The position numbers were made by a program, and so were the translations under genes. DNA of 64,000 nucleotides from Alphaproteobacteria bacterium (GTDB taxonomy: Bacteria; Pseudomonadota; Alphaproteobacteria; Sphingomonadales; Sphingomonadaceae). The stretch lies in NCBI GenBank assembly GCA_005883305.1, contig VBAC01000001.1:806001-870000 (forward strand). Direction: 5' to 3'. Below the pieces are notes generated by a model. The model saw only the letters and a list, made by a program, of their open reading frames with translations. It did no database searches and was not told where the DNA came from. Below are positions 20,710 to 58,290 of the stretch, piece after piece (within the stretch, counting starts at the first letter, position 1; each line of letters begins with the position of its first letter).

Positions 20710-20786
20710 GGCGGAGTAGCTCAGCTGGTTAGAGCAGCGGAATCATAATCCGCGTGTCGGGGGTTCAAGTCCCTCCTCCGCTACCA
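20710..20786 (+). tRNA. tRNA-Met (anticodon CAT, elongator type), prophage attachment site
   Basis: Acceptor GGCGGAG/CTCCGCT (G-U first pair), D arm GCTCAGCTGGTTAGAGC, anticodon stem GCGGA/TCCGC around ATCATAA, T arm GGGGG-TTCAAGT-CCCTC and an encoded CCA are all present. The CAT anticodon with this body fits elongator Met; a lysidine-modified tRNA-Ile2 cannot be fully excluded. Its last 13 bases are the left copy of the prophage attachment core, and they regenerate a complete tRNA. Confidence 0.9.
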
Positions 20787-22377
20787 CCGTAACCGCCAGA
20801 GGCGCACCCCTTCGCGCCGCTGGTCGACCTGTCGCGAGGGCGACCGCCGATTCAAGTGATCCAGTAAACTCGATCGCATGTCCTCCGGCTTCGGCCGGGG
20901 TGACGTGGATCGCTTCGACGAGGCCGCGAATGTCGGCTTTTACCTGGTCGGAAAGAGGCTCGCCGGCGGCGATCGCCGCAGTGATGCGGCGAACGTGCTG
21001 GCGATAGGCTTCGACAATTTGCGGGTGAAGGACGATCACCGGGACCGCGTCCTCCTCGCCGAGCTCGGCGCGCGCGCGATCGCGCTCCTCGATCTTCCTG
21101 GCCAGCGCCTGGCGCAGCTCGGCGAACTCGCCGCCGCCGTCGGCGATCGCGGCGACGAGGCGCTCAACGGCGGCCACGGCCTTGGCGAGCTGCCTTTCCC
21201 GCGCGGCCCGGGCCCGCCCGCCCTCGCGAAGCTTCCGCTCGCGCTCGAGGTGGAACTCGCGCACCAAGATCGACACCGCTTCAGGAGAGAGCAGCTGCTC
21301 CTCGAGGCCGGCGAGGACGCGGGCCTGCAGCTCCCCCAGCTGCAGGCGGCGGTTGTGGCCGCAGGTGCCGGCCTCGCGGGCGCGACTGCAGGCGAGCCGC
21401 GTATCGGCGACGATCGTCATCGAGCCGCCGCAGAGGCCGCATTGGATCAAGCCCGAGAAGAGGTGGCGCGGGCGCTTGCGATAGACGAGGGGCTGGCCGG
21501 CGCGGCGCCGTAGCACCTCCTGGACCTGCTCCCACAGCTCATCGCTGACGATACGCAGCTCGGGGACGTCTATCGTCACCCGCTCGCTGACGGGATTGAG
21601 CCTCGAAACGCGATTCCGGCTGTCCGGATCGCGCCGCATGTTGACGCGGTTGTAGACGAAGCGGCCGACATAGATCGGGTTTTGAAGGATGCCGATCTGA
21701 CGTCCGCGATGACCGATGATCGCCGGCGCGCGCCACTCGCCGCCTCTGGCGGATTTGATCCCGTCGGCATTGAGGCCCTTGGCGATCGCCTTCGGGCTGC
21801 GGCCCGCCGCGTACTCTTCATAGACGCGGACTACGACGGCTGCCTGCATCAGGTTGATCCGGCGGCGCCCCGCGTCAACCTGCCCTCTTTCGTCGAACTC
21901 CCTGACGACCTCGTAGCCATAGCAGAGGCCGCCCGGGATACGGCCGCGGGCGAGGGCGCCGCGCTGGCCGCGCCTGATCTTGTCGGCCATCTTGCGCAGC
22001 TCGAGCGCGTCCATCGTGCCCTTGAAGCCAATCTTGAATTCGTCGACATCGCCTTGGGAGAGCGTGATCAGGCCGACGTCGTGATGGCGAAGGCGCTTGA
22101 AGATGCCGGCGCTATCCTCCTGATCGCGGGCGATGCGATCGAGATCCTCGGCGAGGACTATCTCGAAGAGGCCGCGGGGGACGTCGGCGAGGAGGGACGT
22201 CATTCCGGGCCGCCTATTATCGGCGCCGGAGATCGCGTGGTCGGCATAGACCCTGACGACTTCCCAGCCTTCGCGCTCAGCGTGACGCCGGCACTCTCGC
22301 TCCTGGTCTTCGGCCGAGGTGGGCGAGCACTTGTCGTCTGAGAAGCGGGCGTAGATCGCGCAGCGGCGGGCGGACAT
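20743..22377 (-). CDS. Large serine recombinase (phage integrase)
   Basis: A 544-residue member of the large serine recombinases, which integrate and excise DNA by a double-strand break with a serine nucleophile. The resolvase domain begins RCAIYARFSDD (Ser13 catalytic; further family motif in EDLDRIARD). A recombinase domain (about 165-280), a zinc ribbon (CGLCGGSM then LACSRA and GTCGHNRR) and a coiled-coil C-terminus follow. The gene is last in the early operon. Its final codons lie inside the host tRNA gene, so the last ten residues (EGLEPPTRGL) come from host DNA and differ from those of the excised phage. Confidence 0.93.
   Translation of the reverse strand: MSARRCAIYARFSDDKCSPTSAEDQERECRRHAEREGWEVVRVYADHAISGADNRRPGMTSLLADVPRGLFEIVLAEDLDRIARDQEDSAGIFKRLRHHDVGLITLSQGDVDEFKIGFKGTMDALELRKMADKIRRGQRGALARGRIPGGLCYGYEVVREFDERGQVDAGRRRINLMQAAVVVRVYEEYAAGRSPKAIAKGLNADGIKSARGGEWRAPAIIGHRGRQIGILQNPIYVGRFVYNRVNMRRDPDSRNRVSRLNPVSERVTIDVPELRIVSDELWEQVQEVLRRRAGQPLVYRKRPRHLFSGLIQCGLCGGSMTIVADTRLACSRAREAGTCGHNRRLQLGELQARVLAGLEEQLLSPEAVSILVREFHLERERKLREGGRARAARERQLAKAVAAVERLVAAIADGGGEFAELRQALARKIEERDRARAELGEEDAVPVIVLHPQIVEAYRQHVRRITAAIAAGEPLSDQVKADIRGLVEAIHVTPAEAGGHAIEFTGSLESAVALATGRPAARRGAPLAVTVVAEEGLEPPTRGL
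20774..20786 (+). other. attL core (TCCTCCGCTACCA)
   Basis: The 3' terminal 13 bases of tRNA-Met, identical to 61740-61752. The flanking bases differ at the two copies on both sides, so the shared block ends there. The recombinase reading frame crosses this core. Confidence 0.85.
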
Positions 22378-23188: not shown

Positions 23189-23394
23189 GGCTTTTTTCCC
23201 GGGGCGTCGATCGTCATTGTAACGCCGCAGCACCGCGGCCAGCCTGAGCGAAGGCAATGGGCCGCGGCGACCTCCCTCGAGGCGCCGCACGATCGGCACC
23301 ACACGCGGCCGCGGGCGAGGGCAGGGATGCGGGCAATCTCGGCGGGTAGTCCTGACAGGGCGCGCACGGCGCGTTCAAAGGCGTCGGTCATCAT
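23185..23394 (-). CDS. Small cysteine-rich (zinc-finger-like) phage protein
   Basis: This 69-residue protein has CRSCG, a single Cys and CCG positioned as a possible zinc site. Start and stop overlap the neighbouring genes by four bases each, supporting real translation. Function unknown. Confidence 0.6.
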   Translation of the reverse strand: MMTDAFERAVRALSGLPAEIARIPALARGRVWCRSCGASREVAAAHCLRSGWPRCCGVTMTIDAPGKKP

Positions 23395-25055
23395 TCGTCA
23401 CCCATGATCGAAGGAGCCAGGCGGACACGCTTCCCCTGCGCCTCGAGAAGCCCATTGCTGCGCAGTCGGCCGAGATACGTCCCGAAGGTGCCGCCATCGG
23501 CCGACATTCCCAGATCAGCGGCGAGGCCTTCGCGGGTGGTGAAGTGCGGGCTTCGCTTGATCAGGACGTCTACCATGCGGCGGACGCCGGGAATTCTGGC
23601 GCCCCAAAAGCGGGCGAGCTCGGGCCCGGCCGCCGGCAGCGGCTCGATCTCGATCCCGCTCGCCTCGACGCCGGTGAGAGTGGCGCCCCATTTTTCGCCG
23701 TCCTGCTCGATATAACCGGCGCCGCGCAGCGCGCCTTTGTAGGTTCCCCACGTCCCGCCGCTTTTCGAGAAGCCGGCGAGGGTCGCCCACTGTGCTTCGC
23801 TGAGGCGCGCCGGGTAAATTCGCGCCAGCGGCAGCAAAGCCTTTCGACCGCGGCGAAGCGCCTGATCGTCGCCGTTCGGCTTAGGGTTGGGGGAGGCGGG
23901 AGGACGGACCTTGGCCGGTGTCCTCGCCGCCTCCCCCCCACCGGCGGGTGGAACGGGCTCAGAGGGGGCCCTGGGCCGTTCCTTGCCGGCGGAAACCGTT
24001 TCGAGATGGATCTCCGCGACAGCTCTGCCGATCGTCGCCAGCGCCGCGGTTCGTATATCGAGGAGCTGCTCGGCCGACGCCAGACGCTGGGCCAGGTCCC
24101 GGTGCGCGCAGCGCAGGCGCCCTATCTCCACATCCTTCCCGGCGAGCTGCGCCGCGACGTCGGCGCCCACGACGGCCGCGGCGATCGGCGCGTCGGCCGC
24201 CGGCTTCGCGAGGGCGGCCGCGATCGCCGAGACGTCGAGCTCGGCGAGCAGCTTCGGCTCGACATGCACTTCGCCAGGCGCCGGCGTTCTACTCGAATCG
24301 AAGGTGGCGATCGCCGGCGTGAAGCCGCGCTCGAGGATGCCGAGCCGGGGGCTATAGATCCACCGCTCGCCCCGCCCTAGCGAGGGCAGCGATCGCATGA
24401 CTTCGGCTCGGACGTCCTTATCGCCCTTGGCCTTGAGATAGTCGTCGATCGCCTTCTGATCGCGCGGATCGACGAGCTGGTGGGCGATGATCGTTTGAGC
24501 CTGGGAAAGGACGGCCTTCGACACGTCAGCGGGGCGCTGAGTGATCAGGTGAAGCACGAAGCCGGCGACGCGGCCGCGCTTCGCGATCCAGATCATGTCG
24601 CGCGTCAGGCCGAAGGCGACGTCGTCGGGCGCCATTTGCGGACAGACCTCTTCGGCCTCGTCGACGATCAGGTGGAAATTCCCGCGCGGCTTGGCGCGGA
24701 GCCGCCGCATGAAGGCAGCGAGGAAGACGCGCTGCAGGGCGTCGTCGTGGATATGGGCGAGGCTGACGATCGCCGAAACGCGCTGCTCGATCACGATCCG
24801 CGCGATAGCGTCGCCGTCGTAAGGGCCGATCGGGACGTCGCCGTGGGCGCCGCCGAAAATCGGAATGTCGAAGCCGGCGCCAGTGCCGGCGCGATCGGAC
24901 CGCAGCCCGTACCAAACATCGGTGAGATCGATGATCGCCAAGTGTCGGCGCTCGGTGAGGAGCTGCTCGGCCTCTTCCTTGGCCGTCACCGTCTTCCCGG
25001 CGCCGCTGTTGCCGACGATCGCGTGGTGCTCGTCGATATAGGCGCGATCAGTCAT
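23391..25055 (-). CDS. HerA-like ATPase with duplicated C-terminal winged-helix repeats
   Basis: The start at 25055 gives 554 residues. Residues 1-260 form a HerA/FtsK-type motor ATPase with Walker A GNSGAGKT (15-22) and Walker B LIVDEAEE (129-136), and a sensor-like LHLITQRPADV. A variable linker and coiled segment follow. The C-terminal 130 residues hold two related winged-helix units, recognisable from GTWGTYKGALRGAGYIE and GTFGTYLGRLRSNGLLE. It lies in the operon with the ParB-like gene. A helicase, DNA-translocase or packaging-accessory role is inferred. Confidence 0.75.
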   Translation of the reverse strand: MTDRAYIDEHHAIVGNSGAGKTVTAKEEAEQLLTERRHLAIIDLTDVWYGLRSDRAGTGAGFDIPIFGGAHGDVPIGPYDGDAIARIVIEQRVSAIVSLAHIHDDALQRVFLAAFMRRLRAKPRGNFHLIVDEAEEVCPQMAPDDVAFGLTRDMIWIAKRGRVAGFVLHLITQRPADVSKAVLSQAQTIIAHQLVDPRDQKAIDDYLKAKGDKDVRAEVMRSLPSLGRGERWIYSPRLGILERGFTPAIATFDSSRTPAPGEVHVEPKLLAELDVSAIAAALAKPAADAPIAAAVVGADVAAQLAGKDVEIGRLRCAHRDLAQRLASAEQLLDIRTAALATIGRAVAEIHLETVSAGKERPRAPSEPVPPAGGGEAARTPAKVRPPASPNPKPNGDDQALRRGRKALLPLARIYPARLSEAQWATLAGFSKSGGTWGTYKGALRGAGYIEQDGEKWGATLTGVEASGIEIEPLPAAGPELARFWGARIPGVRRMVDVLIKRSPHFTTREGLAADLGMSADGGTFGTYLGRLRSNGLLEAQGKRVRLAPSIMGDE

Positions 25056-25311
25056 TGTCGGGTCTTCCGTTGCGGAGATCGACGAAGCGGATCGTGCCGC
25101 CAAAGTCGGCGAGGATTCCGCCGTCCGTGGCGACGTCGAGCGGCTCGCCCTTTTCGTGGTGCGTGGCGAAGGTCTGCGGGGGGCGTCGGGTGACGCCCCC
25201 CATCTTCCGTTCGTCGAACTCGAGGAAGCACCGGCGGCGCCCGTCGATCTTAACGGGCGAGCCGTGGGGCATCCTCTCCCCGGCGATCGCGGCGATCGTG
25301 CCCGGCCTCAT
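25048..25311 (-). CDS. Small phage protein of unknown function
   Basis: An 87-residue product from the ATG at 25311, which overlaps the upstream stop (ATGA). It ends eight bases inside the ATPase gene. The sequence has charged beta-like segments (CFLEFDERKMGG, then GGTIRFVDLRNG). No family was recognised. Confidence 0.6.
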   Translation of the reverse strand: MRPGTIAAIAGERMPHGSPVKIDGRRRCFLEFDERKMGGVTRRPPQTFATHHEKGEPLDVATDGGILADFGGTIRFVDLRNGRPDND

Positions 25312-25556
25312 ACCGCAGAGCCGTCCTGGGCGGCGCCAGCGCGCCGCGCCAGCATTGCCGCCGCGTCCTGGCTTAGGCCGTAGGCCACGGCCCACCAGCG
25401 CGCCCAGAGCGCCTCCTGGATAGCGAGGCGGAAGGCGCCGCCGATCTGATACCAGCATGAGCGGCAGAGGTTGCGCCGGCCCATCGCCCGTCCGGCGCAG
25501 CCGGGCGTCATGCAATGGACCGGCCGCGTCGGCCGAGCGCGACGTCGCCACTTCAC
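25308..25556 (-). CDS. Small zinc-finger-like phage protein
   Basis: These 82 residues include HCMTPGC and CRSC, a likely four-Cys/His metal site near the N-terminus, followed by an amphipathic helical part. ATGA overlaps at both ends place it firmly in the operon between the ParB-like and ATPase genes. Function unknown. Confidence 0.6.
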   Translation of the reverse strand: MKWRRRARPTRPVHCMTPGCAGRAMGRRNLCRSCWYQIGGAFRLAIQEALWARWWAVAYGLSQDAAAMLARRAGAAQDGSAV

Positions 25557-27358
25557 GACGCCGTCTCTGCGATCGTCTCGGCCGCCGGCACTTCGGCGGG
25601 CGGGGTGCCCGCGGCCTCGCCGCCGGCATCCTCGTCCGCGGTGGGTTCGGCGCCGGCTTCTTTGGCCTCCTCCTCCTCGGCTTTCGCCGCGAGTTCCCGC
25701 TCGTAGAGTGCCTCGGCCTCTGCGAAGCGCTCCTGGACGTCGGCCGCCGGAATCCTGACGAGCAAGGCGACGACGAAGGTGCCGTCTTCTTCCTTCGCGA
25801 TCGACGGGACATAGTCGTCGTTGGCGTTGTCGGGCCAGAACGTGCGGCCCTCGAGCGGCGTCCCGGCCACCGGCGGCGCCGCCAGGCGCGCCGCCTTATA
25901 TTCGATCGCCTCCTTTCGCTGCTCGGCCTCCCATGCCGCCTGATCGAAAGGCTTCCCGGGATTTGCCGGCGGCGCGGGCTCGGCCTTGATGAAGCACGAT
26001 TCGACGCGCCTCAGGCCGCCGGCGGCGCTGACTTCGAAGATCGCAATCGAGGCGTCGCGCTGATCGGGCGTCAGCCGATCGGCGGCGTTGTAAGCGGCCT
26101 TGAAGCCCGCCGGGGGATCGGGGAGCTGCCAGCTTTGCTTCGCGAGGCTCAACACGCCGTCGGCCCAGCCTTCGCCCTGGGCGAGCTTGCCGACCTCGAT
26201 ATCGCCCTTCTCGCGGGCGAGGCGGTCGACGATCGACGGATCGAGCAGCACTTCGCGATCTTCGGCGCCAAAGAAGAGATCAGCCTCCACGCGGCCGCCG
26301 GCGTCCCGATAGGCGTCGAGCCCGACGTAGATCACCAGTTTATTGTCGGCGGCGTAGACCTTGCCGGCGATCGCATCGCGGATCGTGCCGGGGCTGTGCG
26401 CGTTATAGGGCTTCTTCTTCTCGGCTTCGAAGATTTTGAGCTGCACCGCCTGATCGGGGTGGCCGGCATAGGCCTTGGCCGAATCAAGCGTAATCTCGCC
26501 CTTGCGCAGCGCATCGAGGATCGCCGGCGCCAGATCCGCGAGCCTGACACGCTGCTCGATATAGCGGACGGTGGTGCCGAACCGGCGAGCGCAATGAGCG
26601 AGCTGCTCCCGGCGATCGTTCATCCCGCCTTCGGCATAGCCCTGGATGATCGCCGCGAAGGCCTCGACCTCGTCGGCAGGATTCATGTCCTCCCGAAGAT
26701 TCTCGGCGAGGCTCGCCTCCGCTAAGGCTTCACGCGAGACGATCTTGACCGGCACGTCCCAGTCGCGCGCGATTCGCTTCTTCTTGACGTTGAGGCTGAG
26801 GGCCCGCCAGCGACGGCCGCCACCGCCGACTTCATGGAGGCCCTTGCCGCCAAGGGCTTCGGCTACGACGAGATTTTGGAGCAGGCCTTTCTCGTGGATC
26901 GAATCGGCGAGCGCCTCGATCCCGACCTCGCCGTCCGTCTTTCTGACGTTGAGCGGAGAGAGGATCAGCTTGTTCAAAGGGATTGTCGTCTTCATATGGG
27001 TATCTCCGGTTCCAGTTGGATTGGTGCCGGGCCGATCGCGCTTCGATCGGGCGGCTTGCTCGCCCGCGACGTCAGGCAACGTCGTTTCGGAGTTCGGGGA
27101 AGGGCCGCGGCGCGAGCCGGCGGCCCTTCCTTTTTTAGGGGTGGGGCGGAAGTAATGGACGCCGCCCTTCGCGGGGTGGGGCTCGCGCTGCCAGCCTTCG
27201 GCCGATAGGTAGCGGGCGATCGTCGTCGCGCCGAAATCGATCCCGGTTTCGGCTTTGACGAGGGCGGCGAGATCGCCGGGGAGCACCTTCGTATTCCCCG
27301 GTTCGGCGATGAATCGCGCGACGGCCGCTTTGACGCGAGCCTTATCCTGGTCGCTCAT
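25553..27358 (-). CDS. ParB/Spo0J-family protein with an extra N-terminal winged-helix extension
   Basis: The full frame encodes 601 residues. Residues 122-290 are a ParB N-terminal and HTH region (SPLNVRKTDGEVGIEALADS; ENLREDMNPADEVEAF). The following 300 residues are acidic and less conserved. Residues 1-75 form a separate helix-turn-helix-like domain (LVKAETGIDFGATTIARYLS), joined by a low-complexity linker. The ATG at 26995 has its own GGAG eight bases upstream and starts exactly where ordinary ParB proteins start. A second, shorter product of 480 residues is therefore plausible. No parA is present, so plasmid-like partition is not implied. Confidence 0.8.
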   Translation of the reverse strand: MSDQDKARVKAAVARFIAEPGNTKVLPGDLAALVKAETGIDFGATTIARYLSAEGWQREPHPAKGGVHYFRPTPKKGRAAGSRRGPSPNSETTLPDVAGEQAARSKRDRPGTNPTGTGDTHMKTTIPLNKLILSPLNVRKTDGEVGIEALADSIHEKGLLQNLVVAEALGGKGLHEVGGGGRRWRALSLNVKKKRIARDWDVPVKIVSREALAEASLAENLREDMNPADEVEAFAAIIQGYAEGGMNDRREQLAHCARRFGTTVRYIEQRVRLADLAPAILDALRKGEITLDSAKAYAGHPDQAVQLKIFEAEKKKPYNAHSPGTIRDAIAGKVYAADNKLVIYVGLDAYRDAGGRVEADLFFGAEDREVLLDPSIVDRLAREKGDIEVGKLAQGEGWADGVLSLAKQSWQLPDPPAGFKAAYNAADRLTPDQRDASIAIFEVSAAGGLRRVESCFIKAEPAPPANPGKPFDQAAWEAEQRKEAIEYKAARLAAPPVAGTPLEGRTFWPDNANDDYVPSIAKEEDGTFVVALLVRIPAADVQERFAEAEALYERELAAKAEEEEAKEAGAEPTADEDAGGEAAGTPPAEVPAAETIAETAS

Positions 27359-28324: not shown

Positions 28325-28681
28325 TCAGCTTGCGGTGTTGACCGCTTCGCCAACACCGCCGTCGTCATTCGCTGCGCGGAGCGGCGCCACCCCCGGGGCG
28401 CTGGCGCCAAAGCGCCCGTCGTCGTTGGCGGCGACTAGCCGCTGCCGGGGCGGGGCCATGCGCAGCGTCACCGCTGGGTTAGACATCGCGCTCGGCGAGA
28501 TTCCGTGGGTGATCTCGACGGCGGCGCCATAGGTCGCGCCGCATTCGATGTTGGAGCATTGCAGTTGGAGCTGCCGGTAGGTTGGCGCCACGTCACGGCT
28601 TGTCCGAACGCGCGTCGGCGCCTCGCAATGGGGACAGTCGATCGAACGCAATCTAGGTACAACAGGTAACACTCTCGTCAC
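28325..28681 (-). CDS. Ogr/Delta-type late transcription activator
   Basis: P2 Ogr and P4 Delta are small zinc proteins that bind upstream of late promoters and recruit RNA polymerase. Here the cysteine spacing is exactly theirs: Cys16, Cys19, Cys42 and Cys47 (CX2C, X22, CX4C), in the context DCPHCEAPTRVRTSRD and QCSNIECGATY. The GTG at 28681 has a G-rich ribosome-binding site and follows the upstream stop by one base; a later TTG at 28651 would give the more typical short N-terminus. The 118 residues include a C-terminal extension. Unlike P2, where ogr follows the tail operon, this copy is in the early operon. The probable targets are the four dyads at 38337, 41512, 49360 and 56387. Confidence 0.87.
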   Translation of the reverse strand: MTRVLPVVPRLRSIDCPHCEAPTRVRTSRDVAPTYRQLQLQCSNIECGATYGAAVEITHGISPSAMSNPAVTLRMAPPRQRLVAANDDGRFGASAPGVAPLRAANDDGGVGEAVNTAS

Positions 28682-29512: not shown

Positions 29513-29871
29513 CGGACCGCCTCGCCCAGGCGGGCGGCGTGACGCGCACCTTGCAAAACGGGGCGACGATCGCACTCGTCGACCGCCGCCCCTACCCCTA
29601 CGGTGTGCCCAGTGGGGGTCCGAGAAATGGGGGGATCAAGTTGTCTGGCGACGCTGGCAGGTTCTGGGCGAAGGCCCAAGGCAATCGCGATCTGCAGCGA
29701 TTCGCCGCGTATCGCCATCCGCTTTCCCTCCAGCACCTTGTAAACGACCGCCGGCTTGAAGTTGTGCCGATTCGCCCATTCCCCGATTGTCTCGCCGGCT
29801 TCGACGAGCCTCGCCCGCGCAGAGCGGATTGCCTTCATCGGGATTGGATCGAAAAGAGAATCGGCTTGCAT
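29509..29871 (-). CDS. Cro-like DNA-binding protein (BcepMu gp16-type), first gene of the early operon
   Basis: The 120-residue product contains a helix-turn-helix of the BcepMu gp16 type (EWANRHNFKPAVVYKVLEGK, then RGESLQIAIALGL). It is the first gene read away from the repressor, with only 23 bp between the two starts. This is the place of a Cro-type switch protein. A second possible start is Met12 (29838), but its ribosome-binding site is weaker. Confidence 0.72.
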   Translation of the reverse strand: MQADSLFDPIPMKAIRSARARLVEAGETIGEWANRHNFKPAVVYKVLEGKRMAIRGESLQIAIALGLRPEPASVARQLDPPISRTPTGHTVGVGAAVDECDRRPVLQGARHAARLGEAVR

Positions 29872-31972: not shown

Positions 31973-32322
31973 TGGATCACCTCGACATTCAGGCGATAGC
32001 CGCGACCGATCACTGTTTGGACGATCGTCGCCGGTGCGCCTGCATCGCGCAGCTTGCGGCGAATCCTTGTCATGAAGACCTCGATCACGTTGCCGAGCGT
32101 CTCGTTGCCGACGCGCTCGCAAAGCACCGCGCGGGCGACGATCGCGCCGCCGGCCTGGGCGAGGCTCCCGAAAACCAAGTGCTCGGCCGCCGTGAAGGAA
32201 AGGATCGATCCGCGCCAGCGGGTGAAGCCGCGCGGATCATGGGCGAGTTCGCCGATTAAGACGGGCCGCTCAGCCTCGAGATTGCAGCCGCAGCCCGGGC
32301 AGAAGGCGAGAGCCTCAATCAT
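31963..32322 (-). CDS. OmpR-type winged-helix DNA-binding protein inside the tail operon
   Basis: A 119-residue protein whose residues 40-119 match an OmpR/PhoB trans_reg_C domain (FTAAEHLVFGSLAQAGGAIV, then MTRIRRKLRDAGAPATIVQT and GRGYRL). The N-terminus has CPGCGC, a possible metal site, in place of a receiver domain. It lies between the tape measure gene and U, overlapping both, and P2 has nothing here. A regulator acting late in infection is the simplest reading. Confidence 0.8.
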   Translation of the reverse strand: MIEALAFCPGCGCNLEAERPVLIGELAHDPRGFTRWRGSILSFTAAEHLVFGSLAQAGGAIVARAVLCERVGNETLGNVIEVFMTRIRRKLRDAGAPATIVQTVIGRGYRLNVEVIQCR

Positions 32323-34894
32323 CGTCGTAGCTGGAGCGCGCGGCCGATGCCGCGCGGCGCTGGGCCTCGGCCAGTGCCTCTTCGACGGCGCGCCGGATCG
32401 CGACGGGATCGCCGCCGGGGGCATTGATCGTGATCGCCACGCTCATTGAGATCGGTGCCGCGATCGGCCCGCGGCCGCCGGCGGCGCCGGCGCCGCCGGC
32501 GCCCGCCGGGACGCCTGCCGCGAGCGCCGGCGCCGCCGCGCCGATGGCCAGGGCCGCCGTCATGCGACGGGCGAGACTGGAGATCCTTTCGATCGGCCCG
32601 CCGGCGCCACGATCGATGCCGATCCCGAGGCCCTCGGTGACGAAGTTGCCGAGTTGCATAAAAACGCGCGAGGGCGAGTTGATCCCGAGCTTGCGGCGGA
32701 ACCAGTTGCCCGTTCGCTCGGCGAGGCTGGTCACGCTGTCGCGTACCCAGGCGGCGCCCGACCGAATGCCATTCGCCAAGCCGCGGGCGATCGACTGGCC
32801 CCAGGCGTAGAAGCGCGACCCCAAGCCGGCGAAGTATCCGCCGACGGACGAAAAGATATTCATGATGCCGCGCCAGATTGCGGGCAAGACGGCTAGGAGC
32901 GTCTGTATCGGTGACAGGAAGAGGCCGACACCGAAGGCGACATAGCCGCCGATCTGGCGCCAAACGCCCGAGATCCAATTGCCGACGCCGCTGAAGATGG
33001 AGCGGATCGATTGCCACGCGCGGCCGAGCCAGCCGATCGCGGCGAAGAAGGCTGCCTTGATCTCGTCCCAGTAGGTCCAGATCAGGTAGGCCGCGACCGC
33101 GATCGCGGTGATCGCAAGGCCGATCGGATTGAGCATAAGAGCGCGGCCGAGCCACAGGATCACCGTCCCCGCGATCCGCAGCGCCGAGCCAATCCTCGTC
33201 ATGATCCCGATCACGCCGCCGACGCCGCGCAGCCAGGCGAATGCTCGGACGAGCGCTCCGATCCCCGAAACCGTCGCGCCGAGGACGGTAACGACCGGGC
33301 CGAGCGCCGCCGCCAGCACCAGGCCCTTGATGATCGTCTCCTGCATTCCCGGCGAAAGTCGGCTGAAACGCTCGGCGAGGCCGGCGACGATCTCGGCGAT
33401 TCGCGAGAGGGCGGGAAGCATCCGATCGCCCGCCTGGGCCAGTGACGCAAACATCTGATTTCGCATCATCTGGCGTTGGCCGCCTCGGGTCCGCTGCTGG
33501 CGATCGAATGCAGCGTTGAGCTGGTCCTGGCCCGATCGCATCCCCGCGAGCGTGTCGGTGAACATGCGGTTTTGCGTGCCGGTGAGCGCGATCATCGCGC
33601 CATAGGCTTCGGTCGAGCCGAGCAGCTCGATCATTTGGGCGTCGTTGCCATGCAGCGCGTTGCGGATGCGGGTGAAGGCGGGAACCATGCCGCCCGATTC
33701 GCGCACGAGCTCGCGGAATGTCGTCGCGCCGAGCTGGCGGAAGACGCGCTTCGAAAGCGTCGTCTCGCGGGTGAGGCCGGCAACCGCCGCGCGGATCTGC
33801 GTATGGACCTGAGCCGCCGGCGCACCGAGCGCCGTCATGGCCGAGACGCTCGCCAGATATTCGTCGAGCTTCACGCCGGCATTTGCGATCTGAGGTGCGA
33901 CCGATCCGAAGCCCTGGGCGAGGCCGGCCACCGTAGTTTTACCGCCTCGCACCGTGCGGAAAATGATGTCGTAGACGCGCTGCTGCTCGCGGCCGTGGAG
34001 GTTGAAGGCGTTGATCGAGGACGTGACAAGGTCGACCGCTTCGCTGGTCTGGCCGAGGCCGGCCACAGCAAGGCGCCCCGATCCCTCGAGGACGCGGAAC
34101 TGATCGTTGGCAGATATCCCCGCCGACCGGACCTGGTAGAGTGCGTCGCCGAGCTCGACGATCGGCTTGGGCATCCGCCGCCCGATCGCCAGCACTCGCT
34201 CGCCCATCTGGTCGATGTTCTCGACGTTGTTGTCGATCAGCGTCGAGACGTTGGACATCGATGTTTCGAATTGCGTCGCCGCGCCATCGGCCGCGGCGCC
34301 CAGAGCGAGCAGCGGGGCCGTAAGGAATAGCGAGGCGCGGCCACCGGCGGACATAATCCGCCCGCCGGCGTTCTGGATCGCCTGGCCGCGTTGCTGAAGG
34401 CGCTGAATGCGCTCGAGCTGCGTCCTCTGCTCGGCGAGGCGGCGCGTGGCGTCCTGAGTGCTGTTCGCCAGCCGGTCTTCGTAGCGATGGAGCTCGGCGA
34501 CGTCGGCGCCGGCGCGCTCGAGTCTGCCGCCGAGATCCTGCAGCTCGCGACCTTGCTTCTCGTGCTGCTCGGTTAGCTTCTTCTCCTGCGCCTCGGCGCG
34601 CGCCAGCGCCGCCCTCATCTTGTTAGTCGGCGCCTCGGCCTGGGCGATCTCCGATCGGAGCGCTGCCGTCTTCTGGCGCGCCTCCTCGAGCTTAACGTTC
34701 GTGCCCCTAAGCCGGGTCTCGAGGCCCTTGAACGCGGTGAGCTGCGCCTGTGCCCGCCTGAGGTTGGCGACCTCCTGCGTCGTGGCGGCGAGGGCCTGCT
34801 TGGTAGCGCGCGATCCCCCGGCGATCGATCGCAGCGGCGCGCTCAGCCGATCGAGGGCGTCGAAGATAACCCGAAGGCGAAGGTCGCGGTCCAT
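32315..34894 (-). CDS. Tail tape measure protein T
   Basis: The 859-residue product sets tail length. Residues 1-180 are predicted coiled coil (RAQAQLTAFKGLETRLRGTN), then the TP901-type tape-measure core (MSNVSTLIDNNVENIDQMGE), then hydrophobic segments at about 520-680 that could cross the membrane at DNA entry. Arg/Gly/Ala-rich helices end it. Length is in the P2 T range (815). Confidence 0.93.
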   Translation of the reverse strand: MDRDLRLRVIFDALDRLSAPLRSIAGGSRATKQALAATTQEVANLRRAQAQLTAFKGLETRLRGTNVKLEEARQKTAALRSEIAQAEAPTNKMRAALARAEAQEKKLTEQHEKQGRELQDLGGRLERAGADVAELHRYEDRLANSTQDATRRLAEQRTQLERIQRLQQRGQAIQNAGGRIMSAGGRASLFLTAPLLALGAAADGAATQFETSMSNVSTLIDNNVENIDQMGERVLAIGRRMPKPIVELGDALYQVRSAGISANDQFRVLEGSGRLAVAGLGQTSEAVDLVTSSINAFNLHGREQQRVYDIIFRTVRGGKTTVAGLAQGFGSVAPQIANAGVKLDEYLASVSAMTALGAPAAQVHTQIRAAVAGLTRETTLSKRVFRQLGATTFRELVRESGGMVPAFTRIRNALHGNDAQMIELLGSTEAYGAMIALTGTQNRMFTDTLAGMRSGQDQLNAAFDRQQRTRGGQRQMMRNQMFASLAQAGDRMLPALSRIAEIVAGLAERFSRLSPGMQETIIKGLVLAAALGPVVTVLGATVSGIGALVRAFAWLRGVGGVIGIMTRIGSALRIAGTVILWLGRALMLNPIGLAITAIAVAAYLIWTYWDEIKAAFFAAIGWLGRAWQSIRSIFSGVGNWISGVWRQIGGYVAFGVGLFLSPIQTLLAVLPAIWRGIMNIFSSVGGYFAGLGSRFYAWGQSIARGLANGIRSGAAWVRDSVTSLAERTGNWFRRKLGINSPSRVFMQLGNFVTEGLGIGIDRGAGGPIERISSLARRMTAALAIGAAAPALAAGVPAGAGGAGAAGGRGPIAAPISMSVAITINAPGGDPVAIRRAVEEALAEAQRRAASAARSSYDDD

Positions 34895-36025: not shown

Positions 36026-37141
36026 CTACTGGCCCAAAAGCTGGCCGTAATAGCGATCGGTGATCCGCTGATTGAGGATGATGTTCTCCGCCGGCGCACA
36101 GGGCGTGAAGTCGTAGTCGATCGTCACCTTGCCCTGGGCGAGCTGGTCGGCGGCGTTGAGCGCCGGATCGAACCAAGCGCGGGCGCCGACGATCCGGCCT
36201 TGGGCGACCAAGGCCCGGAAATTGGCGTTGATCGTCTCGATGACGTCGCCGATCAGGTTCCGCGTTACCGGCTTGTCGATCGCCCAGATCAGGCCCCGGG
36301 CAATCGCGTCCTGCAGCGCTTGGCTGGTGCGGACCGCGCTTTCGAAGGCGAAGAGGGGGTCGTCGGAGCAAGTCCGATTGCCCCAGAAGCGATAGCCGTT
36401 CATGCGGACCAGCGTCGTCACCGGCGCCGCGTTGAGCAGCCCGGCGTCATTGTCGCCGCTCTGCAGATCGAAACCGATCGGGGCGCTGAGGCCGGTGACG
36501 CCGGCGACCGCGACGTTGGAAAGCGTCTTGTGCCAGCCCGTCTCCTGGTCGATCCGCGCGCGGGTGCCGAGCGCGACCGCGACGGCATGGCCGGGGAAGC
36601 CGCTGAAATCGGGATAGATCAGCATCAGCTCGCGATCGCCGAATTCCCCCCGATAGATGACGGCCTCGGCAACGGTGTTCGCGGCGTCGCAGCTCGCGTA
36701 GACGAAGCCGCGCAGCTTCTTCGCCACGGTGACGAGCTCGGTGATGACGGCTTGGGTGTCGAGGCCAGGAACGCCGAGAATTCGGGGGCGCACGCCGAGC
36801 TGGCTTTCGGCCGCGACCAGGGCGTGAACGCCCGTATAGGTGCCGACGTCGCCGGCGATCGCCGTTTCGGTGGCGGCGTCGTCGGCGCCAGGCGCAACGC
36901 GGACGAGGATGATGATGGGGCTGCACTGCAGCGCGATCGCCTCGAGCGCCTTCGGCAACGTGCCCGTGGCGCCGATCGTCGCTAGTGCGGCGCGGACGTC
37001 GGTGATCAGGATCGGCTTGTCGAGCGGATAGTCGTCGTTCGGCGCCGCCGGCGCGGTGCCGACGATACCGATCACCGCGGTCGCGACGGCCGCGATCGGG
37101 CGGGTGCCGGCGAGAGGTTCGTTGACCGTGATTCCGTGCAT
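36026..37141 (-). CDS. Tail sheath protein FI
   Basis: A 371-residue contractile tail sheath protein with the typical N-terminus (NEPLAGTRPIAAVATAVIGI) and C-terminal sheath domain (NLIGDVIETINANFRALVAQ; FTPCAPAENI). AGGAG precedes the ATG. Its presence marks this as a contractile-tailed myovirus. Confidence 0.96.
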   Translation of the reverse strand: MHGITVNEPLAGTRPIAAVATAVIGIVGTAPAAPNDDYPLDKPILITDVRAALATIGATGTLPKALEAIALQCSPIIILVRVAPGADDAATETAIAGDVGTYTGVHALVAAESQLGVRPRILGVPGLDTQAVITELVTVAKKLRGFVYASCDAANTVAEAVIYRGEFGDRELMLIYPDFSGFPGHAVAVALGTRARIDQETGWHKTLSNVAVAGVTGLSAPIGFDLQSGDNDAGLLNAAPVTTLVRMNGYRFWGNRTCSDDPLFAFESAVRTSQALQDAIARGLIWAIDKPVTRNLIGDVIETINANFRALVAQGRIVGARAWFDPALNAADQLAQGKVTIDYDFTPCAPAENIILNQRITDRYYGQLLGQ

Positions 37142-38291: not shown

Positions 38292-38336
38292 TTCCGCGCA
38301 TGGTGGCGGAGGACGGCCCGAGGTGCGCGGCCTGGC

Positions 38337-41575: not shown

Positions 41576-42424
41576 TCAGTCGTCGTTCGCCGCCATCGCC
41601 GCGAGCGCGAGCGGCCGATTGGTGATGATGAGCTCCTTGCCCTCGGGGTTGCCACCGCCATGCTTGCGCGCCAGCGTGTAGCGGAACGCCACGGGCAGGA
41701 TCGAGAACTCGCCGAAGAAGTCGCGCACTTCGGGCTTGTCGTTGAGCGTCAGGATGAAGCTCCCCGCCAAGCGGCGAAGCCGCTCCCTCAAAAGCTCATA
41801 GTCGCCCCTCGTGAAGAGCTCCTTTCCGTAGAGGCCTTCGATCCCCCAGTAGGGCGGATCGATGAAATAGAGCGTATGCTCGGTGTCATAGCGCCGCATG
41901 AGATCATCGAAGGGCAGCCGCTCGATCACGACGCCGGCCAAGCGCTCGTGCAGCTCCTCGAGCGCGGGCTGCAGCCGCGTCACGTCGAATCTGCCTGGGC
42001 GGTTCGGTCGCAAGCCGAAGACACCTTCTCGCAACCCGCCGTAAGTGGTGCATTGTAGATAGAGGAAGCGCGCGGCGCGCTCGAGATCCGTGAGCGTCTC
42101 GGGATTGGTCGCCTTCAGCCGCTCGAATTCCGCCCGCGTGGTGAGCTGGAATCGCAGCATGTCGAGGAAGGCGACGTAGTGACGCTGAAGGATGCGGAAG
42201 AAGGTCGAGACGTCGCCCGACAGATCGTTGATTACTTCCGACGACGGCTTGCGATGGCGGCGAAGGAAGACGCCGCCCATTCCGAGGAAGGGCTCGGCGT
42301 AGGTCTTATGGGGAATCGCGTCGATCATGGCGATCAGGCGCTTCGCCAGCCGGCTTTTCCCGCCCACGTAGGGGGCTGGGGGGGTGACGGGCGTTACGGA
42401 AACGAAATTAGCGGTGGACTCCAT
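41576..42424 (-). CDS. DNA adenine methyltransferase (Dam family)
   Basis: The start at 42424 gives 282 residues. Motif order is Dam-type: YVGGKSRLAKRL (SAM region, about 19-30), AEPFLGMGG (43-51) and DPPYW (189-193). Phage Dam-like enzymes usually protect phage DNA against restriction. It lies alone between two fibre cassettes without a partner nuclease. Confidence 0.9.
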   Translation of the reverse strand: MESTANFVSVTPVTPPAPYVGGKSRLAKRLIAMIDAIPHKTYAEPFLGMGGVFLRRHRKPSSEVINDLSGDVSTFFRILQRHYVAFLDMLRFQLTTRAEFERLKATNPETLTDLERAARFLYLQCTTYGGLREGVFGLRPNRPGRFDVTRLQPALEELHERLAGVVIERLPFDDLMRRYDTEHTLYFIDPPYWGIEGLYGKELFTRGDYELLRERLRRLAGSFILTLNDKPEVRDFFGEFSILPVAFRYTLARKHGGGNPEGKELIITNRPLALAAMAANDD

Positions 42425-42476
42425 TTGTCTAACTCTGCTTACACGGCCCCGCCGGTGTGCCCGGTGGGGAGACTGA

Positions 42477-42494
42477 GCGCGGCCCGGGCCGCGC
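42477..42494. terminator. 18-bp GC palindrome between the fibre operon and dam
   Basis: GCGCGGCCC followed by its complement forms a perfect 18-bp palindrome in the 148-bp gap downstream of the DUF4376 gene. It could end the J-to-fibre transcript. A second inverted pair, GCCCCGCCG/CGGTGGGG, lies just beyond. No T-run is present. Confidence 0.4.
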
Positions 42495-42572
42495 AAGGTG
42501 CGAGCTCAACCTCGCGGTTCAGGCTGTTGACGCAGCCCGGCCCTCCCCCTGTTTCCAAGGGATCGGGATTTC

Positions 42573-43088: not shown

Positions 43089-45832
43089 GTCACTTGCTCC
43101 GCGAAGAGGGTCATGGTCGAGCTCACCATGTCGTTGCCGATCCGATAATCGACGACGATAAGCTCGTAGGCTCCGCCGACCGTGAGGCCGGTGAGGGTGA
43201 TCGCCCCGGTCGAAAGAGTGCCGGTGCTCTGCCTGTGAGGTTCGAAGGTCTCCTCCGAATCAGATCCCGTCACGGCCGACCCGACGACATCGACGACCGT
43301 TCCGCTTGTAGGCCGGATCATGATCTTCGCCTGGACGCGGCCGCCGCCGCCCAGGGCGCATTTGTACGTGCCGGTGAGGCTGACCTTCAGCTTGCCGGTG
43401 CCGCTGGCATTGATCGCAAGGGGAACGCCGTGCTGGGCGTAGCTCGGCCAGGTTATCGGGCCCGACGCGCCGCCGGCGGCCGAGCTTGAGCCGCCGCTCC
43501 CGGCGGGAACGACGAGAAAGGTGATCCGCTTGCGCACCGTCTGCCCCGCGGCCGCGACGTCATAGTCGATATAGCCTTCGCCGACCGGGTTGTTGCCCTG
43601 GACGTCAGTGCCGACGACGGCGGCGGTGCAATTCCCGGCGCCGACGATCGTGACGCCGGTGATCGGGACGACGACGCCGGCCTGAGTGGCGGTATTGGCG
43701 GTGGCGAAGGGGAGTTGATCGGCGTTCGGGACGCCGCCGGCATTGGCGGCGATCGTGTGCGCCGGCGGGCGCGCCTCGACGGCGATCGGAGAGACGCCGT
43801 TGGCGCCGTTGTTCCCGTTCGTGCCCGGCGTACCCGGAGTGCCCGGCGTGCCTGCCGCGCCATCCTGCGCCTTCACGATCGAGAGGAGGTCGCTGATATT
43901 GTCGGGCCCGCCAGACGTGGCCGTGACGACGAGGCGCTGCCATCCTGCCGGAAGCTGGCCCGACTGCAGGTAGACGATCGTCTGATTGGTCGCCGCGGTC
44001 GTACCGCCGGCGGTAGTGCGCAGCGCGACCGCGCCGAGCCCGGCGCCGGCAGCGTCATAGGCGGTCGCGGACCAGGTGAGCGCACCGGCGTTGTTCTGGC
44101 GATTGGCAGTGAGGGTGACGACCTGGGCCGCCGGGGCAAGCGCGCCGGCACCGTTGTAGGTGACGTGCTGAAAATCGGAGGCGAGATAGATAGTCTTGGC
44201 CGACGCGCCATCGGCCCCGTTGGTGCCCGGGGTGCCGTTGCTGCCGGCGGCGCCGTCCTGCACCTTCACGATCGAGGCCTGGTCGCTGACGTTGTCCGGC
44301 GCGGCCGACGTCGCCGTGACGATCACGCTCGCCGTCCCCGCCGGAAGCTGCCCCGACTGAAGATAAACGGTGTTCTGGGTTGTCGCGGCGATCGTGCCGC
44401 CCGCGGTGGTGCGCAACGTCACCGCCCCCAGGTTGGCCCCGGCGCCATTGTAGGCGACGGCAGACCAGCTCAGCGCGCCGACGTTGTTCTGGCGATTGGC
44501 GGTGAGGCTGATTACCTGCGTCGCCGGGTTGAGGGCGCCCGCACTGTTATAGGTGAATTGCTGGCGATCGGAGGTGAGGTAGAGGGTCTTCGCGGGAGCC
44601 CCGGGGGCGCCGTCAATGCCGTTGGTGCCGTTGGTGCCGGCTGTGCCGGCGATGCCATCCTGAACCTTCACGACGCTAAGGAGGTCGCTGATATTGTCCG
44701 GTGCGCCCGACGTCGCGATGACGATCACGCTCGCCGTCCCCGCCGGGAGCTGGCCCGACTGCAGATAGACAATACCCTGACTCGTGGCGGCGATCGTTCC
44801 GCCGGCGGTGGTGCGCAGCGTCACGCCGCCGAGATTACCTCCGGCGGCGTTGTAGGCGATCGCGGCCCAGCTCAGGGCGCCGGCATTGTTCTGGCGATTG
44901 GCGGTGAGGGTGACCACTTGGCCCGCCGGCGCCAGCGCGCCGGCGCTGTCGTAGGTGAATTGCTGGCGATCGGAGGTGAGGTAGAGCGTCTTCGCCGAGG
45001 CGCCGGGGGTGCCGGGGGTGCCGTTCTCGCCATCCGCCCCGTCGACGCCGTCCTGGGTAACGACGATCGAGACGAGGTCGCTCAAATTGTCCGGGGCGCT
45101 GCTCGACGCCGCGACGATTAGCGTCTTCGTACCTGGGGGGAGCATACCCGACTGAAGGTAGACGGTCGTCTGGTTGGTGGCGGCGACGGTGCCTGTTTTC
45201 GTGGTGCGCAGGGTGGTCGCGCTAAGCACGTTCCCGTTCAGGTCATAGGCCGTCGCGGTCCACGACAGCGCGCCGGTGTTGTTCTGGCGGTAAGCGTCGA
45301 GCTTGATCGCCTGAGTCGCCGGCGTCAGCCCGTAGGCATTGCCGGTGAACTGCTGCCGATCGGCGGTGACATAGAGCGTCTTCGCGGCAGCGCCGGCAGG
45401 GCCGGGCCCTCCGGTATTGCCGGGAATGCCTTGCGGTCCCTGAATTCCGGGATTGCCTTGGGGGCCGGCGATTCCCTGCAGGCCTGGCGGGCCTTCCTGT
45501 CCCTCGGGGCCTTCCGGCCCGATCGGCCCTTCCTCCCCCGGCGGGCCCTCGGGACCGACGCCGGCGGGGCCTTCCGGTCCCTCGGGCCCGGCGTCGCCGC
45601 GCAGCGCCTCGAGGAATTCGGCTTGGCTTTTGCCGGCATTGCCCGGTTGCGCGAGCCACGTCCCGTAGGCGCTGGCGCCGCCAGCGAGCTCGGCCTCGAT
45701 CGGCGCGCGCGCGGCGGCTGACACGGCGCCGATCGTCGTTCCCTTCGTCTGGCCGCCCTGGACGATCGGGATCGCCTCGTCGCCGGCGAGCGCGCCAGCG
45801 GGATTGTCATCGTGAAGGTGGCTGATCTTCAT
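43085..45832 (-). CDS. Large collagen-like tail fibre with four tandem repeats
   Basis: The 915-residue protein has an N-terminal shaft with Gly-X-Y triplets ([20 protein letters not shown]) and then four copies of a unit of about 130 residues. Each unit starts near [15 protein letters not shown] and ends in a short collagen-like linker ([13 protein letters not shown]). A beta-rich C-terminal head (last 200 residues) follows. The repeats lie at about 43790-45400 in DNA. It is a good candidate for the receptor-binding fibre. Confidence 0.82.
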
Positions 45833-49324: not shown

Positions 49325-49359
49325 GTCGCCGCCCGATGCGCGCCGCCGCCAGCGAGGCC

Positions 49360-56457: not shown

Positions 56458-58290
56458 ATGCTCCTAGCCCCGATCGAGAGGCCTGAATTCGCAGATGTGC
56501 GCCGCGAGGCGCGCAGCCTCTATTGGCGCGGGTGGGGCGTGACGCAGATCGTCGACGAGCTCAACCGCATCGGCGAGACGATCGAGGGGTGGAAGGCCCT
56601 GAAGCGGTCGACCGTCGAAAGCTGGAAGCAGCGCGAGAAGTGGGAAGAGGCGCCTTCGATCCGGCGAGCAGAGGAATCGGTGATCGCCCGATTCCAGCAG
56701 CTCGTCGCCAAGGATCAAAAGACCGGCGGCGACTTCAAGGAGATCGACCTACTCGGCCGACAGATCGAGCGTCTCGAGCGATGCCGCCGTTACCGCGACT
56801 CAGGTAACGAGGCCGATCTCAACCCCAACGTCGCCAATCGAAATTCCGGCCCGAAAAAGAAGCCCCGACCCAACCAGCTCCTGCCGGAGCACGTCGAGCA
56901 GCTGCGCGAGGCCTTCGAAGAAGAGTGTTTCGAATATCAACTGACGTGGTGGCGCGCCCGCAACCAGCGGACGCGATTCATCCTCAAGAGCCGCCAGATC
57001 GGCGCGACCTGGTACTTCGCGCGCGAGGCGCTGATCGACGCGCTCGAAACCGGCCGAAACCAGATATTCCTTTCCGCCTCGAGGCGACAGGCCGAGATCT
57101 TCCGCCGCTACATCATCGAGTTCGTCTTCCGCGTGACGGGCGTACAGCTCAAGGGCGAGCACCTGATGATCGACCGCGGCGACGACGAGGAATCAGGCCA
57201 GCCGCTTGAGCGGCCGACGATCTTCTTCCTCGGCGCCAACTATCGCACCGCCCAGGGCGAGCACGGGAATTTCTACTACGACGAGTGCTTCTGGGCCCAA
57301 GACTTCGACACGACTGACGACGTTGCGAGCGGCATGGCTTCACAGAAGCGGTATCGGGAAACCTACTTCTCGACGCCGTCGACGGTCGCGCATCAGGCCT
57401 ACAAGAAATGGTCCGGCGAGAAATTCAACGAGGGCCGGCCGAAGAAGGATTGGACGAAGATCGATACCTACGCGCCGGAGCTGCAGGCCGGCGCGGTAGG
57501 CGAAGACGCAATCTGGCGCCATGTGGTGACGATCGAGGACGCGGCCGCGGGCGGCTGCGATCTGTTCGATATCGACGAGCTCCGCCGGCGCAAGGCCCCG
57601 GACGTCTTCGACAACCTCTATATGTGTCGCTTCGTCGACGACAGCCAATCGGCCTTCCCCTTGGCAATGATGTCGCCGTGCAGGGTCGACAGCTACGACA
57701 AATGGCGCGACTTCGACGGGCTGCAGCTCCGGCCGTACGGGCGAGGCGACGTGGCGATCGGCTACGATCCTCAGGAATCGGCCGACGGTGACGACGCCGC
57801 TTTGGCGGTGATCGCGCTGCCGACGAAGAAGGGCGGCAAATTCCGCGTTCTCGAGAAATTCCGGCTCAAGGGCGACTTCGAAGCCCAGGCCGGTGCGATC
57901 TTCCGGCAAATGGGGCGCTACAGCGTCGTCGACATCGCGATCGACAAGACCGGCGTGGGCGCCGCCGTTTACCAGCTAGTCGTCAAGCGATTCCCCGCCG
58001 CGCGCGGGATCGACTATTCGGCGCCGCTCAAGGCGATGATGGTCTATAAGGCGCGCAGCGTCATCCAGGCGGGCCGCCTCGAGTATGACGCCGGCGACAA
58101 GGATATCACCGCCAGCTTCATGTCGATCCGGCCCGAGCTTACCAAGGCCGGCCGATCGATCACCTACGTCGCGAGCCGCGCCGGCGACACGGGCCACGCC
58201 GACGTCGCCTGGGCGATCATGCACGTCCTCTATAACGAGCCGCTCGACGGCGAGCTCAGCCATTCCTCGAGCACAGTGGAGATATTCTAG
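56458..58290 (+). CDS. Terminase large subunit P
   Basis: The 610-residue ATPase-nuclease pumps DNA into the head. A variant Walker A is SRQIGATW (178-185), Walker B is FYYDECFWAQ, and the nuclease acidic site is VAIGYDPQESADGDDAA. The N-terminal 70 residues include a helix-turn-helix. No Shine-Dalgarno is seen near the ATG. Confidence 0.96.
   Translation: MLLAPIERPEFADVRREARSLYWRGWGVTQIVDELNRIGETIEGWKALKRSTVESWKQREKWEEAPSIRRAEESVIARFQQLVAKDQKTGGDFKEIDLLGRQIERLERCRRYRDSGNEADLNPNVANRNSGPKKKPRPNQLLPEHVEQLREAFEEECFEYQLTWWRARNQRTRFILKSRQIGATWYFAREALIDALETGRNQIFLSASRRQAEIFRRYIIEFVFRVTGVQLKGEHLMIDRGDDEESGQPLERPTIFFLGANYRTAQGEHGNFYYDECFWAQDFDTTDDVASGMASQKRYRETYFSTPSTVAHQAYKKWSGEKFNEGRPKKDWTKIDTYAPELQAGAVGEDAIWRHVVTIEDAAAGGCDLFDIDELRRRKAPDVFDNLYMCRFVDDSQSAFPLAMMSPCRVDSYDKWRDFDGLQLRPYGRGDVAIGYDPQESADGDDAALAVIALPTKKGGKFRVLEKFRLKGDFEAQAGAIFRQMGRYSVVDIAIDKTGVGAAVYQLVVKRFPAARGIDYSAPLKAMMVYKARSVIQAGRLEYDAGDKDITASFMSIRPELTKAGRSITYVASRAGDTGHADVAWAIMHVLYNEPLDGELSHSSSTVEIF

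Follow-up and report, generated by a model that had tools for sequence, protein, structure and literature searches.

FtsK is loaded onto DNA at KOPS sites, which are read by its C-terminal gamma domain, and the repeats of Streptomyces TraB are likewise read by a C-terminal winged helix. In HerA proper, an N-terminal HAS barrel precedes the motor. Passages of PMC10853773 and PMC12839542 describe motors of the HerA-FtsK kind that carry winged-helix readers, both in defence and in mobile elements. Here we describe a 554-residue ATPase encoded in an operon of a P2-like prophage in a 3.03 Mb genome of the Sphingomonadaceae; the window analysed is the 64,000-nucleotide stretch G000:C1:806001-870000. 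The searches made, which covered open PMC papers, showed no description of this ATPase family of phages and plasmids, or of matched tandem exchangeable recognition helices. We favour, with moderate confidence, the reading that the ATPase is a self-contained, sequence-addressed translocase of double-stranded DNA with an exchangeable cassette that would read one short sequence twice, and that the ParB-fold protein encoded in the same operon is a separate DNA-binding protein of the ParB/KorB/Noc fold and not an obligate partner of the motor. The ATPase and its parts are located as follows.

23391..25055, minus strand: whole ATPase, 554 residues, with a HerA-type motor and tandem winged helices at the C-terminus (open reading frame, ORF; HerA_C 22.8 bits, cut-off 22; motifs; model; fold match)
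24321..25055, minus strand: motor domain, residues 1-245 (Walker A GNSGAGKT, Walker B IVDE, sensor Q173, candidate arginine finger R162)
23994..24200, minus strand: predicted 69-residue helix (coiled coil), residues 286-354
23658..23870, minus strand: winged helix 1, residues 396-466
23721..23759, minus strand: recognition helix 1, residues 433-445
23403..23582, minus strand: winged helix 2, residues 492-551
23457..23495, minus strand: recognition helix 2, residues 521-533; all seven face positions match those of recognition helix 1

The sequence-only reading had proposed a 554-residue motor ATPase ending in two related winged-helix units, and both features were borne out. The ORF was confirmed, and in the AlphaFold model (predicted local distance difference test, pLDDT, 89.3) each unit showed a recognition helix followed by two strands. 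Downstream of residue 245 the model contained, in order, a short segment, the 69-residue helix, a disordered linker, and the two winged helices. The motor motifs were conserved across the family: the Walker A GK was present in 109 of 109 proteins, the Walker B glutamate E133 in 109 of 109, the sensor Q173 in 107 of 109, and the arginine finger R162 in 102 of 109. A sensor glutamine together with an arginine finger upstream of strand 4 is given as a feature of the HerA/FtsK clade in a passage of PMC10853773. The motor model was aligned with HerA (8xau) over 230 residues (Z 26.4, root mean square deviation, rmsd, 2.2) and with the FtsK motor (2iut) at Z 15.8; the match to an FtsK family was weak (phrog_1358, E 0.043). 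By its motifs and its modelled fold, the motor is assigned to the HerA/FtsK clade of P-loop ATPases. The HAS barrel was absent, with residue 1 of the model aligned with HerA residue 135 and Walker A beginning at residue 15, and the NCBIfam HerA equivalog NF040819 scored 41 bits, far under its cut-off of 970.

We analyzed the two recognition helices in an alignment of 108 proteins (A6), in which the helices were compared within each protein and were never aligned to one another. The 13-residue block compared comprised the turn and the recognition helix (residues 431-443 and 519-531 in the window protein). The data showed that identity of the two blocks averaged 71% within a protein and 30% between proteins (107 of the 108 rows), while the same helix compared across two proteins averaged only 29-33% identity. 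The maximum of 2000 permutations of this block was 34.4%. Similar values were obtained for 16 representatives with less than 50% motor identity (72% within, 30% between; maximum of 5000 permutations 48%) and for 11 representatives with less than 45% (71% within, 31% between; maximum of the permutations 59%). The largest matching excess was found in columns 433-435, 437-439, and 441, and further excess at 401-403, 406, 420, 429-432, and at 451 in the wing, so that it fell on the turn, the recognition helix, the N-terminus of the first helix, and one wing position. Little excess was seen at core positions such as 407, 410, 443, and 447. At the seven main face positions, at least five were matched in 97 of the 108 proteins and at least six in 83; these positions were chosen after the column table had been made, and the permutations of the 13-residue block are the cleaner test. 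The residues at these positions were S, T, N, Q, G, or Y in 76% of cases and acidic in 1.9%.

Winged helices usually touch DNA with the surface that bears the recognition helix, and the matching is concentrated on this putative DNA face. Since both readers change together on the usual DNA-contact surface, both would read the same sequence, and the target would be a repeated site. Matched residues shared codons at a frequency of 0.51, compared with 0.46 expected from codon use (0.41 and 0.39 for the core); because this barely exceeds the expectation, recent gene conversion is disfavoured and selection on the protein is favoured. The match of the helices was 69-85% in five proteins outside A6, one from a phage and four from plasmids; the phage protein, from L011, was already a member of the earlier search alignment, A1. 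With the window counted, 153 locus records matched the ATPase profile; some of these records represent one and the same contig, and collapsing at 90% identity left 144. Nearly the whole profile was covered by 113 of the 144 representatives, and many of the others were cut by contig ends or lacked a full match; the tandem winged helices therefore belong to the family. The winged-helix pair noticed in the first reading is thus beyond chance, being common to the family and having its helices matched to each other.

The relation between motor and winged helices was also investigated. Motors were at least 60% identical in 226 pairs of proteins, and in 194 of these the winged-helix pair was less than 40% identical (mean over the 226 pairs 0.31). 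Under another gap rule, 242 pairs had motors at least 60% identical, and the faces were at most 40% identical in 153. The Spearman correlation of motor identity with cassette identity was 0.11 for the winged-helix core and 0.12 for the face, so that the motor is a poor guide to the cassette. Among pairs with motors less than 45% identical, 16 of 3620 shared at least 90% of the face, and the faces of the first winged helix were of 91 distinct kinds among the 108 proteins. The motors of the window protein and its sister in L006 were 84% identical and their winged-helix pairs 26% identical; identity collapsed at about the coiled coil, and the alignment stopped at residue 301. Whole-cassette replacement and fast divergence both fit these comparisons of sequences, which point to replacement because the drop in identity is abrupt.

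We infer a HerA-type motor ring, presumably a hexamer as in its family, that would be tied through the coiled coil and the flexible linker to the two winged helices. The winged helices would read the same short DNA sequence twice, which would place the ring on a repeated site specific to the element, from where it would move along the DNA. The C-terminal pair would act as an exchangeable address cassette: from phage to phage it diverges or is swapped for another, whereas the motor is retained and the two recognition helices remain matched. The ParB-fold protein shares the operon with the motor and perhaps the pathway.

Several observations weigh against this scheme. Four of the 108 proteins matched at three or fewer of the seven face positions, and the protein of L111 matched at none, which may reflect misalignment. 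Some of the matched columns are turn positions occupied by Gly or Ser, for which the reason may be structural, and a helical-periodicity test of the matching was uninformative. Six of the 226 pairs with close motors kept winged-helix pairs at least 60% identical. The position of the identity drop varied: between L020 and L019, 80% of the coil was kept and the winged-helix pair was 18% identical. Searches for a target of the winged helices gave nothing convincing for paired 6-mers common to four loci with the same face, for clustered words, or for repeats beside the plasmid copies. For paired 5-6-mers in 15 same-face blocks compared with 93 others, the best differences were within the range of 20 random groups.

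Most of the ATPase loci were taken from viral contigs (82 matches, of which 80 were kept) and from genomes (68 loci). Among 396 sampled genomes of the same order, three including the window genome had the ATPase at E 1e-12; G326, which shares the ATPase, is a genome of the same family. The ATPase was matched by 63 plasmid records, and four of these loci were viewed; their gene tables, which are incomplete, named no ParA or ParB adjoining the ATPase, and FtsK/SpoIIIE-domain genes were nearby in two of them. Other neighbour families around the motor were DUF5131 (22 of the 144 loci; label checked on one member), a family that we take to be ASCH-like (16 loci), and serine integrases (15 loci). 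A C5 cytosine methylase gene was located just upstream of the motor in L005, and a DUF5131 gene upstream of it in L009 (the same place as L095); no ParB was found in either. A small protein, from a cluster present in 8 loci and presumably GapR-like (DUF2312-like), adjoined or lay near the motor at L015:9750-9992, L050:11547-12095, and L007:18588-18827.

If the motor is a translocase, the DNA on which it acts may belong to the phage or to a competitor. In a defence or superinfection-exclusion role, the motor would seize rival DNA at a rival-specific site, as in the capture proposed for HerA-FtsK systems in a passage of PMC10853773, and the change of address would reflect an arms race. The address does change rapidly, and the best PADLOC matches were MADS mad8, with 55.3 bits, and HerA models from defence systems, which scored at most 54.5 bits. 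However, the best PADLOC stretches covered the motor domain only, and no nuclease partner such as NurA was recognised by Pfam in the ten operon-region proteins, among which small uncharacterised ORFs remain. Because no nuclease partner was recognised, an address on the phage's own DNA is favoured over one on a rival's, and we consider the defence role unlikely. The most likely role of the ATPase is the handling of phage DNA in lytic growth.

The sequence-only reading had placed the ATPase and a ParB-like protein in one overlapping operon, separated by two small proteins; this arrangement is present, the operon is compact, and the two small ORFs overlap. The remaining parts of the operon considered here are as follows.

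25048..25311, minus strand: small ORF, 87 residues, overlapping its neighbours
25308..25556, minus strand: small cysteine-bearing ORF, 82 residues
25553..26995, minus strand: ParB-fold protein, 480 residues, probable true start at 26995
26996..27358, minus strand: in-frame stretch upstream of ParB, with a small unit (codons 1-74) and a linker (codons 75-121)

A distant relative of the 87-residue ORF (32% identity) precedes the motor in L006. Assignment to the ParB family held, with both ParB_N (28.1 bits, cut-off 26.3) and HTH_ParB (25.1 bits, cut-off 22.6) above the Pfam cut-offs. Of the 601-residue length proposed for this protein, the open frame of 601 codons was found, but its ParB part begins at the ATG at 26995 and comprises 480 residues. 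The 121 codons upstream consist of a small unit of about 74 codons, which looks DNA-binding-like by eye only, and the 47-codon linker. Among 14 aligned ParB ORFs, the upstream unit was common only to L014. Between the window and L014, the change rates of the linker at codon positions 1, 2, and 3 were 0.28, 0.26, and 0.17, and the two flanking stretches had position-3 rates of 0.50 and 0.44; the coding signature was thus absent from the linker in this single pair of 47 codons. Because the ATG is preceded by GGAG, the upstream unit occurs in L014 only, and the linker lacks a coding signature, the alignments indicate that ParB is probably 480 residues long with its start at 26995, and a 601-residue product is doubtful. 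A terminator-like hairpin with 11-bp arms, followed by six T on the plus strand and antisense to the open frame, was seen at about 27098-27136, inside the linker and upstream of ParB.

The ParB model (pLDDT 89.1) was aligned with Caulobacter ParB 7bm8 over 94 residues (Z 13.4, rmsd 1.7) and with KorB 8qa9 over 202 residues (Z 13.1, rmsd 5.5). TIGR00180, the canonical ParB model, scored 39.5 bits, under its cut-off of 58.45. A motif that we take to be ENxxR was shortened by one residue in the ParB of the window, L006, and L014. The motif [LFI]G[KR]G[LFI], presented in a passage of PMC12704722 as the canonical ParA-binding feature of ParB, had no match in the window ParB. The same source states that many orphan ParBs are located on mobile elements and that the nucleotide specificity of ParBs is reliably predicted by neither sequence nor AlphaFold3. 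The sequence-only reading had seen no ParA, and no ParA family was recognised among the 42 window ORFs scanned, a subset of the prophage ORFs, each searched against at least one library (some against PHROGs only or Pfam only). We conclude that the window ParB is an orphan prophage ParB-fold protein and at most a putative CTPase. In other phages (L182-L190, L202, L204, and L215), the genes after a related ParB encode a clamp resembling DnaN and a primase resembling DnaG, and a second ParB-like protein was often present, all as judged by eye.

Next, we examined whether ParB and the motor form a module. ParB was the commonest neighbour family found near the motor, occurring within 6 kb at 31 of 144 non-redundant loci and always on the same strand. 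The neighbour cluster contained 32 ParB ORFs: 24 precede the motor, 7 follow it, and 1 overlaps it and is ambiguous. With one hidden Markov model, ParB was searched for around the motors and around a single control anchor, DUF5131, for which the 80 top loci out of at least 582 were used. At distances up to 1.5 kb, ParB was present at 24 of the 144 motors and 3 of the 80 controls (one-sided Fisher p 0.0026); the counts were 25 and 5 at up to 3 kb (p 0.013) and 32 and 9 at up to 6 kb (p 0.029). The loci are not phylogenetically independent. In contrast, no ParB was found within 6 kb at 112 of the 144 motor loci, and no motor was found in the flanks of 83 of 98 ParB loci, where in both cases flank lengths vary and some flanks are ended by the contig. 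Among 37 ParB loci with the same phage cassette, the motor was present in 12 and absent in 13 (with at least about 2.4 kb seen downstream, or the sequence up to an integrase), and 12 were too short to tell. The pairing therefore exceeds the control background, yet most loci separate the two genes. A gene annotated 'chromosome segregation protein' in L011 (MW202482.1, 9431-10825) is not ParB; its translation resembles an SMC/SbcC-type ATPase by eye.

A two-part module, in which ParB would load on a parS-like site and recruit or load the HerA-type motor in place of ParA, would account for the excess of ParB close to the motor and for its position upstream in 24 of 32 cases, on the same strand each time. 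However, the separation of most motor loci and ParB loci disfavours an obligate partnership, 13 of the 25 decidable cassettes lack the motor, the motor has a winged-helix pair of its own, and the window ParB is without the ParA-binding motif; such a module is distinctly unlikely. By fold, the earlier proposal of a DNA-loading protein with a translocase stands in that a ParB-fold DNA-binding protein and a translocase-type motor are encoded, but a single functional module of the two is weakly supported, and the neighbourhood check proposed with it was largely refuting. The cassettes were gathered by the ParB search, and L005 has cassette genes with no ParB found; the idea of ParB as the cassette's more constant gene was therefore dropped.

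The element that houses the operon is a P2-like prophage with the following recognised genes, besides which small terminase and capsid genes were also recognised.

20743..22377, minus strand: large serine integrase at the prophage end, its stop codon within a tRNA-Met gene (20710-20786)
28328-28678: Ogr/Delta zinc finger (52.9 bits), encoded in the operon
near 29871: helix-turn-helix (HTH) protein of the BcepMu gp16 family, at the start of the leftward operon
32315-34894: tape measure
36026-37141: sheath
56458-58290: terminase large subunit (phrog_3746, 407.9 bits)
58291-59322: portal

The leftward order in the operon is BcepMu gp16-type HTH protein, Ogr/Delta zinc finger, ParB, ATPase, and integrase, and its position in the prophage suggests an early operon. 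No long repeat marking the boundary was found at the right prophage end. The palindrome CTGTTGTA-N11-TACAACAG had four perfect copies in the late region, at 38336, 41511, 49359, and 56386. It was the only long perfect palindrome (arm 8) found with at least three copies; five shuffles gave zero arm-8 families of at least three copies, and exact matches across the 351 loci compared were zero. The copies at 49359 and 56386 are just upstream of late genes, and that at 38336 is close to an ORF start. The palindrome was rejected as a parS, since two copies are just upstream of late genes and the operon encodes the Ogr/Delta zinc finger, for which they are likely sites. A D12-class adenine methyltransferase (66 bits) is encoded among the late genes at 41576-42496, and the tail-fibre gene contains, at 43839-45326, a 300-nucleotide repeat in four copies, 66-77% alike and spaced about 395 nucleotides.

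ParB and the motor could also be parts of a replication module, with ParB as an origin-binding initiator and the HerA-type motor as an accessory helicase. No replication gene was recognised among the window ORFs scanned. In 25 chosen ParB-cassette records, DnaB_C was matched in none (14 of 14 control genomes matched, 10 above the cut-off), and Phage_GPA was above the cut-off in none, with one weak match of 14.7 bits (2 of 14 controls matched). These absences would fit a replication module, but the cassette records may be fragments, small or uncharacterised initiators would escape the scan, and the phages may depend on the host. About half of the decidable cassettes lack the motor, and L005 has genes of the same cassette with no ParB found, and we regard a replication module as improbable.

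The matched helices might instead form a homotypic contact surface, for protein-protein contact or ring assembly, and not read DNA. Self-pairing would likewise demand matching, and no DNA site was found in the searches made. However, the topology is that of a winged helix, in which the matched positions are those of the turn, of the recognition helix, and of one site in the wing, and the face is polar and nearly free of acidic residues, so that this explanation is more improbable still. That the ATPase packages the genome, as could be argued from a 72.7-bit match to PHROG 2666, which bears the label terminase large subunit, from the compact STIV packaging ATPase B204 (Z 19.6), and from the packaging ATPases among the viral fold matches, is very improbable, since the prophage encodes its own terminase large subunit, small subunit, and portal and the ATPase gene is located between the integrase and the regulators.

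If the reading of the ATPase as a self-contained addressed translocase is correct, DNA translocases would gain a further class, one in which the specificity of loading can change fast and in modules. Restriction specificity subunits and ParB-parS pairs likewise change quickly and modularly. The window protein and its L006 sister are natural sister proteins that would make the address code directly testable. More broadly, and only tentatively, because we doubt it slightly more than we believe it, phages and plasmids may carry programmable motors, in which a HerA-type engine with a swappable, self-matched winged-helix pair would use a lineage-specific repeated address to tell own from competitor DNA, moving the former or seizing the latter.

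In comparison with known systems, the window ParB resembles the CTPase-fold ParB/KorB/Noc proteins and the orphan prophage ParBs described in part of PMC12704722 in its ParB N-domain and HTH fold, but it has no ParA-binding motif, its ENxxR motif is one residue short, and no ParA was found in its operon. The HerA-FtsK capture systems, as far as described in passages of PMC10853773, also combine a HerA/FtsK motor with winged-helix readers, and motors and other domains are mixed between systems; in contrast, neither a nuclease nor an Orc/CDC6 ATPase was seen beside the window ATPase, and these passages do not mention the present family of phages and plasmids. The HerA translocases (HerA-NurA, SIR2-HerA, and DUF4297-HerA) are alike in motor fold and motifs, with HerA entries at Z of about 18 to 26. 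However, the motor of the window ATPase begins with the first residue, which leaves no space for a HAS barrel, no nuclease partner was recognised, and the protein adds the coiled coil and the tandem winged helices. FtsK, with its KOPS-reading gamma domain, and Streptomyces TraB would share with it, by analogy, a ring motor and a C-terminal winged helix that could read a short repeat, whereas the window ATPase carries two matched winged helices, which are exchangeable among close relatives.

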